Origin: Diphasiastrum complanatum
Taxonomy: Eukaryota > Streptophyta > Lycopodiopsida > Lycopodiales > Lycopodiaceae
Length of the DNA: 64,000 nucleotides
Direction: 5' to 3'
Assembly (NCBI GenBank): GCA_029204225.1
Contig: CM055094.1
Span: 25,318,541-25,382,540, forward strand
A program made the position numbers and the translations under genes. Below are positions 4,105 through 63,727 of this stretch, one piece after another; within the stretch, counting starts at the first letter, position 1, and each line of letters starts with the position of its first letter. The notes under the pieces were generated by a model. That model had not been told where the DNA came from. It did not search any database and saw only the letters and a program-made list of their open reading frames with translations.

Positions 4105-4612
4105 CTACTATGGACAAGAGATCCTTGCATTGGAAGTTTTATGTTTAGCTTGTCCTTAGAGTAACTTTCACTTATAGGATCAATTGAATGAGGGACCTAT
4201 AGCCAAGTAACACCATGGGAATGTTCAACCTATTTTGAGGTTTGGTAAATTGTCGCATCAAGACTCAAGCCACTTAGTTAGATGTCTTATATTTAACTAG
4301 TGTTGGTAAAATTTTGCATAACTTTAGCACTAGAAATCAAATCATAACATAGTCTTCAGGCATTTGGATACCCTTGCATTGGAGACCCTTGCTTCATTAT
4401 TTTTAGCTTGTTCTTATAGTAGGTTTTACTCATAGGATCCATGGAGTGAGAGACTTGGTGTAGCACCATGGGCAAGTTCAAGCTACTTTGAGGTTTGAAA
4501 AATGATTTACCAACTCAAGCCACCAAGTTATGTGGCTTATATTTAACGAGTTTTGGTAATATTTTGCATCACTTTTAAGATATGGACAATTGCTTAGCAC
4601 TAGAAATCAAAC
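4105..4612. repeat. Diverged tandem duplication, unit about 250 bp
   Basis: Two successive copies (about 4110-4345 and 4365-4610) share, in the same order, cccttgcattgga-type, tttagcttgt, ttactcataggatc, caccatggg, ttgaggtttg, actcaagccac, ttatatttaac and agcactagaaatcaaa segments. Many substitutions and small indels separate them, so the duplication is old. No coding potential is evident. Confidence 0.75.
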
Positions 4613-11200: not shown

Positions 11201-14200
11201 GATCTAGAGCATCAGATCTGATTCAAAATGGATCAAAGGTGAAAGATGGAGCTATTATGGCCATCCGATCAAAGACAACCATTAGATCTGCTGGAAACCA
11301 TCCTAAACTTCATGTGAAAGGGCCTGAAGTGCATAATGCACTTCAACTTCTTTAAAAACTTTCAAGATGAAAAGGACCCAGGTTATTGAAATCCTTGAAA
11401 GGTGAACTTCTTTCAACTTGAAGAAACAGTTCAAAAATTGGACATGCCCTTATTTCCGGTTCCTTAAGCATATTTTGACCAAATGAAGAGCTATGGACTC
11501 CAAACGAAGGGCACTCGAACTATACTTGCAAGTACGGTACTAGAAAACAGAGTGATTCTCGTGGAGAAACTGCTCAGTGGATGCCAAAAGTCATTTGCCC
11601 CTTTCAGGGAGCGTGTAGTTGGGGGTGTGCAGCAAAAACCATTTTCCGTTATGTATGAAGCGATCTTGGCTTTCAACATGCCAACTAAGTAGTAGGGAGC
11701 ATGGTAAGGGAAAATAGCAGGTCATTATTTTGGACTTTTGACATCAGCATTGCACTCGGAGCACTCTTTTTAACTTACATGTGCGTTTTTAAGCAGTTTG
11801 GAAATTGCAAGCTTGAATGAGTTAGTTCTGGGCGAAGCTAGTAAGTTGGATGGCGTCTCCAACTATAGCATTTATAAATTCAAAATGAAGAGCATCCTTA
11901 TGGAGGAGGAGCTCTAGGACATCATGACGGGCATAGAATTGAGGCCCAACACCACTCCAGTTGAAATGAGGGCCTATGACAAGAGGGCACAAAGGGCATT
12001 ATTGTTGATCAATTTGTCGATGAAAGACCATGTGATCATGCACATTAGTGATGCAATTATGGCAAGAGGTGCTTGGGAAGTGTTGAGAGTCCAATATCAA
12101 ACCGTGAATCCATCTTGTATGATGTTTTTGAAGACCAAGCTCAATACCATACGAATGGAAGACAATGAGAGTGCGGGATCCTTCTTCACCATGATCAAGG
12201 AATTGAGAGATCAGTTGATTGCCATCGGAGAATCCATCGGGGATGTCGAGCTTGTTCATGCGACCATGAGTGGCATATTTGAAGGTTTGCAAATGTTCGT
12301 GAGTGGCATTGTATCGAGGGAGAAATTACCCACCTTTGAAGACTTGCACAAGATTCTTCCATAGGAAGAACAGAGGCATGCCACTCAAGAAGATCAGACA
12401 TTGTGGGCCAAAGGCAAGCAAAAGGGTTGGAAGCGACTTCCCAAGAAGGGCAAGGATGACGAGGACAAGAGAGAGCCATTGTCGAAGCCAAAGAAAAAGA
12501 AGGGCAAGTATTATTATTGCCACAAGCAAGGCCATGGTCGCCTAGATAGCTACTTTCTCTCTAACAATTTTGTGAGGACGAATTTTGATCTTAGTCTGAT
12601 AAAGTGATGATAGTGTTGCTTTGGTAGTGTTGTATGTAGATGATATTATCATCAGAAGAAATGACGAGGACCTGATAAAGTCTATCAAAGTTAATTTATG
12701 CAAGCATTTTGAGATGACACTTAGATTTGATGGATTATTGTCTAGGCATAGAAGTGTGACAAAATGCAGACAATGCCAAGCTTTCACAAGCTAAGTTTGC
12801 TCATGAAGTTTCTTGTTGGGAGTCTTATATATCTCACCACCACTAGACTAGATATTAGTTATGCTATAAGCTTGGTGAGTCTATGGAACATTGGAAAGTA
12901 GCCAAGCACATTCTGAGGTACGTGAAAGGCACATTTAATCTTGTTTTAGTCTATTCAAGACAATTTGATTTACCAAAGCTGAAAGGTTATGTGGATGATA
13001 AATGGGATGGTAGCATAGATGATAGGAGATCAACTACTGGTTATGCTTTTGATAGTAACAATGGGTGTTTTTCCTGGTCGAGCGAAAAGCAAGACACCGT
13101 TTCACTTTCTACCACAGAGGCTGAGTATAAGGCTTTATGTTTAGCAACACAAGAAGCAATTTGGTTAGGTCAACTGCTTAAGGGAAATTCGCATAAGGCA
13201 AATCAAAGGTACGATCATTTTTTGTGATAGTCAAAGTGGGACACAATTGGCCAAGAATCCTGTATTTCATGCCAGAACAAAGCACATAGAAGTAAAGTAC
13301 CATTTCATAAGTGAAAAACTTTGTTCAAAAGACATAGACGTGATTCATTGTAGTACTACTTTACAATTAGCTGATATATTCACAGTGTCGCTAAGCAAGG
13401 ACAACGAACTTTAGGATGAAATCTGGCATGGAAACAATAATTTGAAGTGTGGAAGAAATTGAAGGATATGCTTTTCTACCTTGCTCACAATATCATGATA
13501 ATGTATATTTCAAGTTTAGAGTTGTGAGAAACTATGCTATCATGGAGACATGTTTCATGAATAGTTTCCTTGTTAATAATTTGTAAACATTGATTATTGA
13601 GCGAGAGAGTTAGAAAAGCAGTACTCAACTATTCCTTTTATGGTTATTTGTTATGGTTACTTTATCTCTTTAAGTTCTAAATGGTCAGGTGGATCTTTCT
13701 CGAGTCATTAGCTACTACTTATAAACATTCTTCTTGTACTTTCAAGTAAATGCAATATACAATGTGTGGAGCAATTTTGTTTGTCCCTTGTCTTGATAGA
13801 GCTTGAGGATGATGTGCTTATGTGATTGAATCGATCAGTGTTAGTTTTGTCAACTGTATACTTTACTTGTGCATCAAATAATTTCTTACTCTCAAAAGCA
13901 ACGGGCCCCTCAGCCCTCCAGTTGCCGTATCACTTTTGTTAGTGTTAATGACAAAGGGTATATTTGGATATCCTATTCTCAAAACGGGAGCCAAGACGAT
14001 TAGAAGTTTGAGTTTGTGAAAACTCTCATCTAACTTCTCATTTCATGACTAGAGCTACCTTTTCGACTTTTCATCCCCTCTCATACTTGATTAAGCGAGG
14101 CTACAATCTTTGAGTATTCCTCAACAAATTTTGAAAAAACACTAAATGAATGACTTGAGTTTGCGTATGGTTTCAATGATATTTCGTTCAAAGATCAATT

Positions 14201-40104: not shown

Positions 40105-41050
40105 ATACTCCCTCTTACTTGTCATGTGGGTGCTAGCCCCACTATCTATCCACCCGGGGGTTTTCTCCTCTCATGCTTGAAGATGAAAAACTTGACATCA
40201 TGAGAGAGTTTTCATATGAACTCTCCTCTTCCTTTTGGCCTAGGTTTGCTTGACCTTGAGCTTGCTTCCTCTTGAAGCACTCGGAGGCATTTCATCTTGC
40301 TACAAAAGTAGCACTTGAACTTTGACTTATCCTTCCTTGGCTTGCTTGAGCTTGGACTTGAAGATCCTTCTTGATCTTCACTCTTGACTTGGTTCCTCTT
40401 GAATGCAGCACCTTTGCCTTTGCTCTTGATGAAAAGAGCCTTGTCATCTCCATCATTGAGAAAGAGCATCTCCATCCTTGACTCGATGTGTGTTCTCCTA
40501 CTCTCCTCGGCCATGAGGACTCCTTGGAGATCTTCAAGTGAGGGCAATTTGCCCATAATTGCATAGCCTTGCACTAGGTTAGCAAAATCCACACTCAAAC
40601 CATCCAAGATTAGTTGAACAAGTTCACTTTCCTTGATGGAATCTCCTATGTAAGCAAGCTCCTTGTTTAAGTCCTTAACTCTCAACACAGATGAATGTCC
40701 CCTCTCTCCTTTAGCTTGAAAACATTGAAGGATTTGATTCTTCAAGGATAGCGACCTTGAAGTATTCTTGGATTCATATATCTTTTGAAGAGTTTCCCAT
40801 GCTTCTTGAGCCAAGGTGCAAGCACCTACCTCCTTAAGAAGCTCATTAGCTACATTCATTTTTATACAATGGAGAGCAACCTTACACCTCCTTTTGTATT
40901 TTGTAGCTTCTAGTGAATGGGCTCATCCTCTTCACCACTCACTATATCCATTAGATCTTGTAAAATCAGAATTGATTCCATTCTTAGCTTCCAAATTGAG
41001 TAATTAGAAGCATTCAATCTATCATGTGAATCCAAAAGACATGCATTCAT
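40105..41050 (-). pseudogene. Copia gag with protease start
   Basis: The - frame begins near 41045 with LLDSHDRLNASNYSIWKLRM, ESILILQDLMDIVSGEEDEP (DUF4219-like), a stop, then ORF 40859-40212: EVGACTLAQEAWETLQKIY, KDLNKELAYIGDSIKESELV and KLPSLEDLQGVLMAEESRR (UBN2-like). The first half of a zinc knuckle (KFKCYFC) follows. After a frameshift it continues to GWIDSGASTHMTSKREYF, the retropepsin start with DSG. Several stops and one shift make it non-functional as it stands. Confidence 0.88.
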
Positions 41051-56739: not shown

Positions 56740-58385
56740 CTATTGATGATTGCTTGCGACTGTTCCAAGAAATTGGACCATTGTTGAAGAAAAATGTAAA
56801 TCCGGAAGTGGATTTACGGAGTGTCTACATCTCCTGCCCAACTTGCATTTGTGTAACCATTGAGTAAATTGAGTTTGTCGTTGTCGACTGCTCCATAACA
56901 AATGCAAAAACTCATAGTAGCTCAAAGATATCTCATGACTCTGATAAGAGCCTTCCAATGTGTTACACCAGGATTAGTCATAAACTGACTGAGAGAGCTG
57001 ACTGCAAAAGCTATGTCTGGCCTGGTATAGATCATGGTGTACATAAGAGATCCTATAATAAAATGGTAAGGATACTCACGCATCTGCTGCTTCTTATGAA
57101 TTGTTTGGAAACACTGGTCCTTTGACAATTTGAGACCTAGTTCCATTGGTGAGAGAGCTAACTTGCAATTAATCAGATTATATCTGACTAACATGTTGTA
57201 GATGTACCTCTCTTCTGTTTTCTATCTTTGTGGATCTGTATACCAAGACAGAAATGAGCTTCGCCCAGATCGGTCATGTCGAATTCAGAAGATAGCATTG
57301 TCTTGGCCTCTTTTATCAGATCGGTACTGTTGTTGAAAAGCAATTTGTCGTCCACATACAAAGCGATTATGATAAAAGACTGTTGCACTGCTTTGAAGTA
57401 AACATTTGAATCTGAAGAGCTAGGTGTGGTCGTCATCGAGCAAATTGCTTCAAGCCATAAAGTGTCTTATAGAGTCTACACATGATTGTGTTTACCCTCG
57501 ATAATATAACCTTTGGGTTGCACCATGTAAATGTCTTCTTCGATAACTCCATTGAAATATGTTGTCTGTACATTCATTTCATGTATTTCCAAATCTACTG
57601 CAGCGACAAATGGTAGCAAAAGTCGAATAGAAGAATGCTTGACTACTGGACTAAAGGTCTTAGTGTAATCAACGTTGTATACCTGAGAAAATCCTCTGGC
57701 GACAAGTCATGTCTTTCTCATGTTGATGCTTGCATCTGCATTGTATGTGACTCTGAAAATCCATTTGCAATCAACTACGTTTCTGCTAGCAGGTAATTCG
57801 ACAACTATCCATGTCTGGTTCTTGATAAGAGATGAATACTCTTTATCCATAGCTTCTTTCTAGAGATTTGAATCAGGCTGACTGAGTGCCTCTTGGACAG
57901 ATAGGCTGCAGACTCGTCGATATATCGGTTAGGTAGTTTGCTTGCTCTTGAAGATTTTCTGGGTAATAGAGGAAGTTGATTATTTCTATCATATGGTAGT
58001 TGTTGAACTCCAACATCATCATCTTCTAATTCGTCGTTGATTTGTTGTTCATCAAAAGTAGAAGAGCTTGGACCTTCAATGGGATTAGTCAACTGAGGAA
58101 CTGGAAATTTTAATATGTCAGGAGAATCTGACAGGTCGGCTACATGGGGACTGCCTTTTCCCTTGAGGTCTTGAAACTGATCTTCGATGAAGATGACATC
58201 TCGGCTTGTGAATATCTTCAACTCGATGGGATCGAACAACTTGTAGGCTTGATCTGAAGTAGTGTAGCTGATGAAAATACATTTGATACTCTGGAAGTCG
58301 AGCTTCTTCCTGAGATCACGAGGTATCTACGCAAAAGCTGTACATCCAAAAACTCATAGGTTTGATAAAGAAGGTTTGGTAGTGA
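56740..58385 (-). pseudogene. Copia integrase end, reverse transcriptase and RNase H remains
   Basis: Downward on the - strand: TKPSLSNL, FGCTAFA-stop, RKKLDFQSIKCIFISYTTSD, QAYKLFDPIELK and SRDVIFIEDQF. Then an acidic linker, the RYIDES block, reverse transcriptase pieces (VDLEIHEMNVQTTYFNG, FIIIALYVDDKLLFNN, DLGEAHFCLGIQIHKDR) and RNase H start (YHFIIGSLMYTMIYTRPDIA, FAVSSLSQFM). Many shifts. Closely related to the fragments at 30700-32420. Confidence 0.9.
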
Positions 58386-60190: not shown

Positions 60191-60222
60191 TCTGCCAATG
60201 TAGCAAAAACGCGAAAAACCCA

Positions 60223-60510
60223 AAGGTGCCCTTTAGACTGAAGGTATGCAAATCCTGAAGGTGCCCTTAGACTTAAGGTGTTTAAATCCCTAAGGCACCC
60301 TTAGACTGAAGGCAGCGAAGAAGGCGAAGATGCCTTAGACTAAAGGTAGCGAAGAAGACGAAGGTGCCTTAGACTAAAGGCAACGAAGAAGACGAAGGTG
60401 CCTTGGATTAAAGACAACGAAGAAGGCGAAGGTGCCTTAGACTAAAGGCAGCGAAGAAGGCGAAGGTGTCTTAGATTAAAGGCAACGAAAAAGACGAAGG
60501 TGCCTTAAAA
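60223..60510. repeat. Minisatellite, unit about 34-42 bp, around eight copies
   Basis: Units follow the pattern gaaggtgcctta-gactaaaggc, then a-cgaagaagacg/ggcg. The first two to three copies are longer and more diverged (gaaggtgcccttagactgaa). A further gacgaaggtgcctta lies at about 60584. Each unit has an internal near-palindrome AAGGTGCCTT. Frames through it would give Lys/Glu-rich repeats, but there is no sign of a gene. Confidence 0.93.
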
Positions 60511-60725
60511 TGGTTTCTAAGGCATTCTGGCCACTTTGTCGCTTTTTTGCGAAGGGGTGAAAAAAGACGAAAAAAGGCGAAAAAGACGAAGGTGCCTTAA
60601 AAATAATTTTTAAAATATTTCAAGTAGCAAATAATATTAAAAAGTATGAATGAAATGAAAAACTTCATGCCACAAAAGTTTGAAATTCATACATAAGTTT
60701 CAAAATCATAAAATAGTCATGTACA

Positions 60726-61949
60726 CTATTCCCAAAAATCATTAAGGTCATTGACATCTTTGGGCTTTTCTAGAGGAGCCTCAATAGAGACAATGGCAAC
60801 CTCTTGTACAGTTTCCTCTACAGTCACAACATTGTAATCTTGAACTAAGACATCTACAAAGTCCCCTGTGTCATCCACTATCCCACTAGCGGGAGGTTGT
60901 GGTTCTTTCGATAGTGGAATTACAGAGTCTTCATCATCTGTAGACTTTTCTACCTCAATTAATTCATCTAACAAAATTTAGAAAGATTTCATTCGCATTT
61001 TTATAAAATCTACTCAGCTAGAATCTAAATCTACAACAACAACATGCCTTCCTTTTTGAACAATGCATGCGCTTGTACCGCTACCACTAAACAAATCTAA
61101 AACCTAGTCTGCTGGATGTAAAAAAAATTCAATAAGATGATTAATTAATTGTTGTGGCTTTTGATAAGAACAAGCCACAGAACCTATCATTGAACTTTTT
61201 AATATTTTTTTTTACTACTGGAAATTGGAACAAGTTCCCAAAGCTAGTCAACTCGGCGGTGTTGTACTGCAGCATGGAGCGTTTGCCATCCAGTGAATAA
61301 TAACCAATGGTTATGTATTCAATCTCATTACACAGCCGTGCACCACACCTGAATTGCAAACATTGGGCTTGTACCTACAAAAAGTAGAGTAAATTATTAT
61401 TTTAAACAATGATCTATGCTATTACAAATAAAGTTAAGTAATTAAAAAGTTAAGAACATACCAAACAACATTTTCAACCCCAACATTGCTTTTTGTTAAA
61501 AGAGCTTTTTGCACTGAAGTCGACTGCCAACTTGAATGGAATATTACAACTCTCAAAATAGGAAGAGTTGTAATTTCAAGAAATCTTTGCATTACACTAT
61601 GAGTTTCAATGAATTTAAATGAATAATCATTATTTAAAGATTCTTTCATCTGAAATCCATAGAAGATGTCTGCTATGCATAGAGTGTAGGGTCTTTTGTT
61701 TAAAAATTTTGAAATCTCCCTACGATCTTCCACAATGTAAAAACATGATCGTCAAGAACTCTACCTTGCACATGAAATGGAGAATCTCTTCTTAGCAATA
61801 TGGATAAATAGTTCACCAAGTTTAGTGCTATTTATACCTTTTGTAAAATAAAACATATATTTGTTTTTGTCCTTTAGAGGAACATATTGAGTCCAGCCCA
61901 AGATCCGAAAGAAAATCTTCAACATCCTTAATCTCGCAAAAATTTCGCT
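60726..61949 (-). pseudogene. Beta-class DNA amino-methyltransferase-like gene, broken
   Basis: Such enzymes methylate adenine N6 or cytosine N4 using S-adenosylmethionine. On the - strand, from acceptor at 61951: RNFCEIKDVEDFLSDLG, shift, WTQYVPLKDKNKYMFYF, shift, SPFHVQGRVLDDHVF, shift, FLNKRPYTLCIADIFYGFQM (ADIFYGF in place of D-P-P-Y, motif IV), then LRVVIFHSSWQSTSV and GVENVVW. An 87-nt GT-AG intron (61461-61375) follows, then YKPN, shift, EIEYITIGYYSLDGKR, FNDRFCGLFLSKAT, and after a shift LHPAD-stop-VLDLFSGSGT (motif I), GRHVVVVDLDSS-stop. An acidic tail (60974-60726) ends DVNDLNDFWE. Motif IV before motif I is the beta-type order. At least three in-frame stops and several shifts: not functional here. 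Family call from motifs only. Confidence 0.68.
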
Positions 61950-62626
61950 CTAAATATGCAAAAATACAATTATTATTGCCATTTTATTAGAATCTTACTA
62001 GAAAATTTCTTTGAAATTCATGTTTGATTTATAAAATTTTAAGATAGCAACATTTTTGTGTAGATTTTGATGTTTTTTAAAAAATTTAATGTCCAAGCCA
62101 AGAAAAAAAAAAGCATTTTCTATGTTGAGCATAGCAAGTTCTTTAAATTTGCAAAGATGTGTTATGCTCAACATAGAAACCTTTCTTCCTCTCGTCCGGG
62201 CTCTATGTTGAGCATAACATCTCTTCAATCTTTATGAGGTTATGCTATGCTCAACATAAGATATTCTCTTCCTCTCTCCCAAGTCCTATGTTGAGCATAA
62301 TGTGCATTCTCACTCAACGCGGTTATGCTATGCGGAGCATACGATCTCCTCTTTTGCTTGCCCGCGTTGAGTTGAGCAAAGCGTCTGGGCGAGAGGAAGA
62401 AATGTTTTTATGCTAAGCATAGCGAATCGTTGCAAAATAAAAGAACTTACTATGCTCAACATAGGATTAAAAAGAAACTAAACTTTTCTCCTAAGATTAT
62501 CATGGCACAATATTTGTCTATACTATGCTAAGCATAACATCTTATCTATTTAAATAAATTAAACCTTTGTAATACTATTCTAAGCATAGAGAAAGACTTT
62601 TAAAAAAGAAAAATTACAAATATCAC
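61950..62626 (-). other. Presumed intron of the methyltransferase-like gene
   Basis: On the - strand it starts GTGATA after gtccag and ends catatttag before agcgaa (677 nt). Most of it is occupied by the palindromic-motif cluster. The splice assignment is tentative because the gene is decayed. Confidence 0.4.
62116..62600. repeat. Cluster of palindromic TATGCTCAACATAG motifs, arm 1
   Basis: The motif and its complement (CTATGTTGAGCATA, variants TATGCTAAGCATA, TATGCGGAGCATA) occur about ten times between 62119 and 62592, often as cctatgttgagcataa followed by ttatgctatgctcaacata. Each is itself nearly self-complementary. Between them are CT-rich linkers (ttcctctctccc). The segment 62180-62360 is roughly the reverse complement of 62885-63060. 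Confidence 0.88.
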
Positions 62627-62815
62627 CTGGACAAAAAGTGGATTGTTGAAAGCTATGCGCGAGATTATAGAAGATCGTCACATGAATGCTTAGATCGCTT
62701 TGATGACAACCTTAAACACAAATTCGTAAATGAGGTGCCATGTCTTACTCTTTGGGTCCTTAAATAAAAACTTTGACCTGCAAACTTTAATGGGCCCCCT
62801 TTTTGACCGAATACT
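62627..62815 (-). pseudogene. Possible upstream exon of the methyltransferase-like gene
   Basis: The - frame reads KLVGDSTSIRSKRGPIKVC, RSKFLFKDPKSKTWHLIYEF and VFKVVIKAI, a stop, AFM, a stop, then RSSIISRIAFNNPLFVQ, ending at a plausible donor gtccag/gtgata. Two stops and no recognised domain. It is linked to the gene below only by strand, spacing and the donor. Confidence 0.35.
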
Positions 62816-62884: not shown

Positions 62885-63095
62885 TTACCAACCCTAAGCA
62901 TAGAACGCGGGTGAGCGAAAGAGGAGATGCTATGCTCCGATAGCATAATCGCATTGAGTGAGAACACACGTTATGCTTAACATAGAACTCGATTTAGAAA
63001 AAGAGAATATCTTACGCTGAGGCATAGAGCTCGGGCGAGAGCAAGAACATAGCAAATCGTTGCAAAATAAAACAACTTGCTATGCTTAGCAAGTT
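62885..63095. repeat. Palindromic-motif cluster, arm 2 (inverted relative to arm 1)
   Basis: Contains cctaagcatagaacgcgggt, gatgctatgctccgatagca, ttatgcttaacatagaactc and tgctatgcttagcaag. It pairs with 62180-62360 in inverted orientation over about 170 bp. A short direct match also exists: aatcgttgcaaaataaaa at 62425 and again at 63056. Confidence 0.85.
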
Positions 63096-63128: not shown

Positions 63129-63727
63129 GAGGTACAACTTAATGGAGCAGTCAAATTGGAATACCTAGACAAATCTCCATATGGAACTCTAGTTAATGGA
63201 AGTCGTTTGTCAATATTATACACCTGACCCAAGAGGAGCGTGACAAAATAACCGAGAAATATATAAATATTGTGTCTACTTCTCTTTCTGCTCCTATACA
63301 TAATCTTTTTGTCAGAATTCCATACGATCCTACGCAGGTTTATTTGGATTCTGACCAGTATAACTAGTACGAGGCTCACCTAGCTAATAGAATTGATCTT
63401 TTTGGCAATTATTTTGATTTCTTTCTTCTAGATTCACATAGAAGCTTTAGATTAGGTCCCAAATTTTGTGCCGAGCTGAAAGATAAAACATCAGAGATTA
63501 CAGATGTAATAGTGAAATCCGAAAGAAGCTTTTTGCAGCATAGTATTAGTTTCGATTCTCATGGTGTAGTTTTTGTTGTTAGTCCATTTTTTATGGGAGC
63601 GATGAAGGCAAATGACACTGATTTTGAAAGGGCTGTATATTTTGTTGAATGCAGTCCAGTGGCAAAATTTTATTTGATTCCATATGAGAATAAGGATTGC
63701 TCGTTTGTTTTTGTTGCTTTAATTTAA
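63129..63727 (+). pseudogene. Unrecognised protein-coding frame with one shift and one stop
   Basis: A frame VQLNGAVKLEYLDKSPYGTL ends at a stop (63225). A second frame from 63218 reads IHLTQEERDKITEKYINIVS, SAPIHNLFVRIPYDPTQVYL, an amber stop at 63367, then 118 codons (ANRIDLFGNYFDFF, SFRLGPKFCAEL, SERSFLQHSISFDSHGVVF, RAVYFVECSPVAKFYLIPYE) to TAA 63725-63727. Amino-acid composition is protein-like, not repeat-like. No signal peptide, no membrane segment, no domain I recognise. It lies divergently to the methyltransferase-like gene, beyond the palindromic cluster. It could be a decayed host gene, a transposon protein or an endogenised viral protein; the sequence does not decide. Confidence 0.5.

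Follow-up and report, generated by a model that had tools for sequence, protein, structure and literature searches.

The sequence analysed here is a stretch of 64,000 nucleotides (nt) of the genome of the lycopod Diphasiastrum complanatum (C3:25318541-25382540 of a 1.745 Gb assembly in 5176 contigs), hereafter called the window. Its minus strand carries the remnant of a broken gene, recognisable from approximately 61925 to 60726, which on the sequence evidence is a decayed, intron-bearing gene for a DNA amino-methyltransferase of the permuted (beta) class. The parts of this remnant are listed in Table 1. A first-pass annotation of the same DNA had extended the locus from 60726 to 62815; the region from approximately 61950 to 62815 showed no match to the gene family described below, nothing tested ties it to the gene, and the upstream limit is now placed at approximately 61925.

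When eight pieces of the family gene were compared with the whole window, matches were obtained from exon 1 and the methyltransferase only, and the middle exons known from other copies are missing at the locus. As the exon 1 match lies just before the beginning of the methyltransferase similarity, the window copy has lost the intervening part. In many family copies the DNA similarity to the window sets in at 61742-61749, and in many it ends at 60727, with an identity of approximately 71-77%, the acidic tail that forms the end of the gene lying at 60977-60726. In seven loci (L163, L164, L166, L167, L168, L170 and L171) the matches end at 60597 (81.6-83.4% identity), and in the DNA comparison the similarity spans from 61742-61749 to 60597 in 7 of the 9 closest copies read. 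The right-end tail of the family gave short matches only, the best one covering 34 nt at 4553-4586 (expectation value (E) 2e-4), away from the locus.

Table 1. Parts of the methyltransferase gene remnant identified in the window
Feature	Position	Strand	Basis
Remnant of family exon 1 (N-terminal part, no assigned function)	61788..61925	-	tblastn search of the window with L182 exon 1 (58.7% identity, E 1.2e-12)
Methyltransferase exon with motif IV and the strand preceding W-Y-K-P-N	61462..61751	-	open frame 61751-61437; aligns with bacterial and phage enzymes
Motif IV, D-I-F-Y (mostly D-I-P-Y in the family; usually D-P-P-Y)	61659..61670	-	aligned in the DPPY/SPPY column
GT-AG intron of 87 nt within the W-Y-K-P-N region	61375..61461	-	1 of 62 GT-AG pairs yields VWYKPN; position shared with family copies
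Last methyltransferase exon (three in-frame stops, two frame shifts), ending in the acidic tail and a stop	60726..61374	-	reading frames; PF01555
Motif I, D-L-F-S-G-S-G-T (S-adenosylmethionine binding)	61074..61097	-	PF01555, E 5.7e-8
3' non-coding part common to the closest subfamily	60597..60725	-	similarity ends at 60597, before the family right end

The first-pass annotation had recognised FSGSGT as motif I and had proposed a DNA amino-methyltransferase fold with the motifs in beta-class order, and both proposals are borne out by profile searches. The single-frame piece around FSGSGT, with X at one stop, matched the Pfam family PF01555 (N6_N4_Mtase) with an E of 5.7e-8 and 33.4 bits, the cut-off being 26.7 bits. 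A stitched reading, for which frames were picked by eye and stops replaced by X, reached 42.3 bits in a match that covers positions 75-219 of the 221-position profile. It scored 74 bits with a profile made from seven prokaryotic and phage enzymes, which had themselves been retrieved because they matched this reading. Its first 228 residues, from which motif I is absent, still gave 17.7 bits with the seven-enzyme profile, whereas the highest score among 1000 shuffles of these residues was 6.8 bits. When the whole window was scanned without stitching, as 1588 six-frame pieces at least 25 residues long, the three top pieces all came from the locus (17.5, 13.7 and 5.5 bits), the best piece elsewhere scored 3.4 bits, and only the first two locus pieces fell below an E of 0.01. 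The best matches of a PDB sequence search were RsrI (E 4e-5) and CcrM (E 1.2e-4, query residues 161-307), both of which we take to be beta-class enzymes. With the motif I piece as query, the only families that NCBIfam and PHROGs returned below an E of 1e-3 were those of methyltransferases or DNA methyltransferases; the other four locus pieces gave no match. The MT-A70 profile gave no Pfam match to the stitched reading up to an E of 10, and the motif is DIFY/DIPY, not DPPW.

The evidence for motif IV is of a different kind. That ADIFYGF is motif IV-like, as had been suggested, is supported by two MAFFT alignments placing DIFY on the DPPY/SPPY of bacterial enzymes, and BLAST aligned the motif IV stretch with an enzyme from an Acinetobacter plasmid. 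A Pfam search of the individual segments, also proposed in the first-pass annotation, succeeded for the motif I piece; neither the ADIFYGF segment alone nor the stitched reading cut before motif I had a Pfam match. The order at the locus is permuted, with the catalytic motif IV followed by the target region and motif I. The canonical catalytic tetrapeptide [DNS]PP[YFW] is absent, the window having DIFY and the family most commonly DIPYG. For this reason we call the locus a homologue by descent and make no claim of a working enzyme.

Splicing at GT-AG sites, the acidic tail, stops and frame shifts had all been noted previously and were all found again. The intron has the sequence GTATGTTC...TTTTTGTAG; among the 62 GT-AG pairs of 60-200 nt that were tried, it alone restored VWYKPN, and its removal lifted the profile score of its stretch from 3.8 to 10.6 bits. 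An intron occurs at the same place in family copies. Of 34 copies measured (the window and four duplicates excluded, other near-identical pairs retained), both sites had the looked-for form in 16, the donor being TG/GTA in 23 and the acceptor in the looked-for form in 24. The window gene is dead: its last exon is interrupted by three in-frame stops and two frame shifts, DIFY replaces the DIPY usual in the family, and the middle exons are lost. The window copy is inert, and there is no function at the locus.

Relatives elsewhere in the genome, which the first-pass annotation had anticipated, proved to be numerous. A search of the genome with PF01555 yielded 1605 candidates, and all 150 that were scored lay above the cut-off, with rows on each of C1-C24. 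Some rows were paired with rows of equal score on small contigs, so that distinct loci are fewer than rows; as the other candidates were unscored, the family count is a lower bound. A protein search of the same genome gave 218 matches (150 of 3655 candidates scored), and a DNA search gave 48 (40 of 1642 scored), the top-scoring others having 80-85% identity. The set examined comprised 56 loci (L124-L179), a number that includes duplicates and the window itself. Motif IV could be aligned in 43 of these and read DIPYG in 21, NIPYG in 5, DIPYE in 4, YIPYE in 3, DIP*G in 2 and NILYG in 2. Six further forms were seen once each, the single DIFYG being the window's own place. SPPY occurred in none of the 43, and ADIFYGF in no fetched copy besides the window's own place. 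Motif I was DLFSGSGT in 27 of 55 loci. Upstream, the family gene comprises exon 1, a basic linker and the exon 'YHFFVLGGIHSLQ...'; this exon was present in 26 of the 56 loci, of which many are clipped by the locus end. None of the upstream exons attained a Pfam cut-off. The exon 'YHFFVLGGIHSLQ...' had appeared ParB-like by eye, a reading which we rejected: Pfam and NCBIfam gave no ParB, the exon scored no better than 1000 shuffles with a phage ParB profile, and hhalign was likewise unsupportive.

Four pairs of loci were nearly identical over 3.4 to 4.2 kb (L164/L166, 99.1%; L170/L171, 98.6%; L172/L173, 99.2%; L152/L153, 99.3%) and represent either recent duplications or haplotype duplicates of the assembly. 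More distant copies were also encountered (L175, L177 and L124-L126), whose DNA is approximately 69-72% identical to that of the window in short stretches; the highest PF01555 score among them was 60.8 bits, for L124. One further locus, L174, contains a 793-nt inverted repeat (93.6%; 385-1177 and 2088-2879) around a stretch in which the linker exon is reversed relative to the gene, an apparent inversion between two repeat copies.

Outside this genome, the 51-residue motif I piece used as query matched 39 loci on viral contigs, with 35-53% identity, and at least 72 loci in bacterial and archaeal genomes, with at most 50% identity among the matches listed. Searches of viral contigs with the stitched reading, the upstream exon or the DUF7869 piece (see below) found none, and phages and plasmids gave weak matches only (68 and 114 records, respectively, at E up to 1). 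By eye, phage proteins on several viral contigs (L014, L018, L021-L024 and others) resemble a ParB-like N-terminal domain joined to a methyltransferase.

Most fetched copies are broken; 13 have an unbroken last exon (17 frames, from which four duplicates were dropped). In the 78 pairs formed by these 13 copies, the median ratio of nonsynonymous to synonymous substitution rates (dN/dS) was 0.34 (5-95% range 0.17-1.02), an estimate somewhat biased by the choice of unbroken frames and drawn from copies that are not independent. The changes were distributed over codon positions 1, 2 and 3 as 0.30, 0.27 and 0.43, and this third-position excess is a better sign of coding than the ratio. We read it as indicating that the lineages which gave rise to the copies stayed coding.

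The family has a shared, abrupt right end. Nineteen loci were chosen because their tail is complete; in these the similarity stops within approximately 4 nt at GGTCAYCATGTT(A) or close variants, and no common sequence was visible by eye in the 30 nt beyond it. This end lies 761-890 nt past the stop codon in 17 of the 19 loci, 683 nt past it in L140 and 519 nt in L165; other loci have a clipped or absent tail. For six copies (L180-L185) the 8 kb upstream was also read. L183 has a gene, on the strand opposite the methyltransferase gene, which contains the DUF7869 domain after a Ser-rich part; one piece matched the domain with an E of 7.8e-35 and another with an E of 1e-5, just under the cut-off. 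L181 has only the Ser-rich part, the family sequence of L184 begins just before exon 1, L180 has Copia-like frames (by eye) and L185 no family piece. L182 (on C6) and L183 (on C13) are collinear, with 84-93% identity, in the Ser-rich part, the linker and portions of both exon 1 and the transposase-like gene. Counting insertions, the copy on C13 extends for 8.2 kb between the left boundary that the two share and the right end. From its pattern LDN...ENNN...VGHTHDQIDQ, DUF7869 is probably a transposase of the DDE/RNase H-like type. Neither a reverse transcriptase, nor a tyrosine recombinase, nor a TET/JBP domain was detected in the 13 family peptides scanned.

We therefore consider the window locus to be a dead fragment, internally deleted and lacking its ends, of an interspersed repeat family that is most likely a methyltransferase-carrying DNA transposon; it is one fossil of a large methyltransferase-bearing repeat family, which is probably mobile. 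Fuller copies hold two divergent genes, the DUF7869 gene and a spliced one whose last part encodes a beta-class DNA amino-methyltransferase and its acidic tail. An intact element would move by means of the DUF7869 protein, and its enzyme, if intact, would methylate adenine or cytosine in DNA at the amino group, perhaps within the element's own DNA. Such methylation could mark the element ends for the transposase or otherwise help transposition, or it could allow the element to evade host silencing by 5-methylcytosine. The Asp of motif IV gives a hint of an adenine target; D-I-P-Y being unusual, no base can be named.

Several observations weigh against this interpretation. A left boundary is visible in 2 copies only, the tail is reversed in L167 and L176, an upstream exon is reversed in L170 and L171, and L130 carries a left-end piece downstream of the gene. 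The single copy inspected for a target-site duplication showed no convincing one. Ten left-right comparisons were made for terminal inverted repeats: in two of them only 3 and 4 of 500 shuffles attained the observed score, in the remaining eight 21 to 358 did so, and comparisons in direct orientation scored similarly. Pieces of the DUF7869 gene were present in 2 of the 6 upstream 8 kb stretches and in 5 of the 60 loci L124-L183 (L182, L183, L152, L153 and L169), most of the 60 having little flank; L152 and L153 are the pair with 99.3% identity, and in L169 the pieces are on the methyltransferase strand. L182 has the gene of L183 by sequence match, with the first part of the DUF7869 domain only. 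The transposase identity of DUF7869 is our own reading; a PDB search gave nothing useful for this role, and a literature search pairing DUF7869 with transposase found nothing. An amplified pseudogene would likewise show mostly broken copies among those fetched. Lastly, dN/dS in the two wrong frames was 0.49 and 0.83, so that the value of 0.34 alone is weak evidence.

The first-pass annotation had left two origins open, a decayed host enzyme or a methyltransferase borne by a mobile element, and the copy number, the right end and the DUF7869 gene favour the latter. A host family of DNA amino-methyltransferase genes, akin to plant DN4MT or rotifer N4CMT and spread by ordinary and segmental duplication, of which the locus would be a pseudogene, appears unlikely. 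Eukaryotic N4-methylcytosine (4mC) enzymes of bacterial origin are on record, as described in the accessible parts of three papers (PMC8885841, PMC8566409, PMC12344493), and such a family would fit the long near-identical stretches of L164/L166, L170/L171 and L172/L173 as well as the coding substitution pattern of the last exon. It accords poorly with the many genomic places, the common abrupt right end of the 19 selected loci, the DUF7869 gene accompanying some copies and a motif IV that is mostly DIPY, not SPPY.

It is distinctly unlikely that the methyltransferase was captured by, or hitchhikes with, another repeat such as Copia and has no role in its own mobility. Copia-like frames were seen by eye near the methyltransferase in L172, L174, L177, L178 and L179, besides those upstream in L180, Pfam confirming Copia for the window's own frames only. 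The 3.75 kb common to L172 and L173 takes in Copia-like sequence, which speaks for hitchhiking and against a self-contained element, as does the partial DUF7869 domain of L182. Outside L172/L173, however, the Copia-like neighbours vary in place and strand, and the family right end is found again and again in their absence. Contamination from bacteria or phages, or a chance likeness of motifs, is scarcely credible: the relatives outside the genome are indeed bacterial, archaeal, phage or plasmid enzymes (the collections searched being prokaryotic, viral and plasmid), but the best outside identity among the matches listed is approximately 50-53% over short pieces of the 51-residue query, the copies have their intron in a common position, rows lie on each of C1-C24, and the shuffle control also speaks against it; the copies in the plant's own genome refute it.

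New epigenetic machinery has repeatedly come from mobile elements that carry DNA-modifying enzymes. DIRS retroelements carry a Dam-like methyltransferase, and fungal KDZ transposons carry TET/JBP. The present family resembles them as a eukaryotic mobile element bearing a DNA-modification gene and differs in having a PF01555 enzyme together with a DUF7869 protein. With the beta-class bacterial enzymes (PF01555; M.RsrI, CcrM) it shares motif IV placed before motif I, the W-x-K-P region, the QKP helix preceding motif I and D-x-F-x-G-S-G-T; unlike them it has a eukaryotic intron, an acidic tail, many copies, extra N-terminal exons below Pfam cut-offs and D-I-P-Y for D-P-P-Y. The phage fusions of a ParB-like domain and a methyltransferase (e.g. 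L018 and L021, by eye) are similarly multi-domain proteins with a C-terminal methyltransferase, from which the family differs in that the tests gave no support for ParB in its upstream exon.

Rotifer N4CMT and the DN4MT1a/b proteins of Marchantia are likewise eukaryotic amino-methyltransferases of bacterial kind, compared here by their descriptions in the accessible parts of the papers, to which the following statements also refer. N4CMT is a PF01555 enzyme captured from bacteria, with conserved introns like the family here; it is distinguished by SPPY, a C-terminal chromodomain and its description as an allelic pair (PMC8885841), whereas the family has many copies, mostly DIPY and, in some copies, an adjoining DUF7869 gene. 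Pfam found no chromodomain in the last exon of L172, the one copy scanned. SPPY is common to most bacterial 4mC enzymes, and DPPY marks enzymes producing N6-methyladenine (6mA) (PMC8885841). The 4mC of Marchantia sperm has been attributed to MpDN4MT1a/b (PMC8566409). Acquisitions in Marchantia, Adineta and early fungi have been grouped in one list, and three protist proteomes searched for PF01555 yielded no match, according to the available text (PMC12344493). A 6mA enzyme from early fungi has been described as probably bacterial in origin (PMC11258239). In plants 6mA is contested, and a 6mA survey covers MT-A70, the terms PF01555 and N6_N4 not occurring in the accessible part of its text (PMC12695648). 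The plant 4mC writers met in the literature were those of Marchantia (PMC8566409, PMC12344493), and our search, conducted largely without subscription papers and on partial texts, found no plant transposon with a PF01555 enzyme.

That a new kind of plant DNA transposon, of the DUF7869 type, marks its own DNA with 6mA or 4mC through a bacterial-type amino-methyltransferase, the mark being written by a mobile element and not by the host, is a tentative proposal and on balance a doubtful one. Some copies of the DUF7869-type element may still be active. A high-copy element with a DNA amino-methyltransferase kept coding would be a concrete candidate writer, and the family, which could explain 'bacterial' methylases in the annotations of such genomes, offers a testable case of a transposon marking DNA.

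Other features were observed in the window. Short palindromic repeats of the AGCATAG type form a cluster at 62117-62470 and 62904-63091 that includes several inverted arms of 20-99 nt, within and beside the originally noted upstream part and outside the gene. A 176-residue frame with a single stop at 63197-63727 (plus strand) corresponds to no Pfam family and had a PHROG match at chance level only, and an Rfam scan of the window at gathering thresholds gave 0 matches. Copia-type gag frames (PF14223) are located at 11918-12361 (plus strand) and 40215-40922 (minus strand), and a retroviral SH3-like polymerase piece (PF25597) at 57808-58326 (minus strand). Just past the end of the methyltransferase repeat, at 60215-60507, lies a 34-bp tandem repeat of approximately 6 copies, with 88% matches in its best part.

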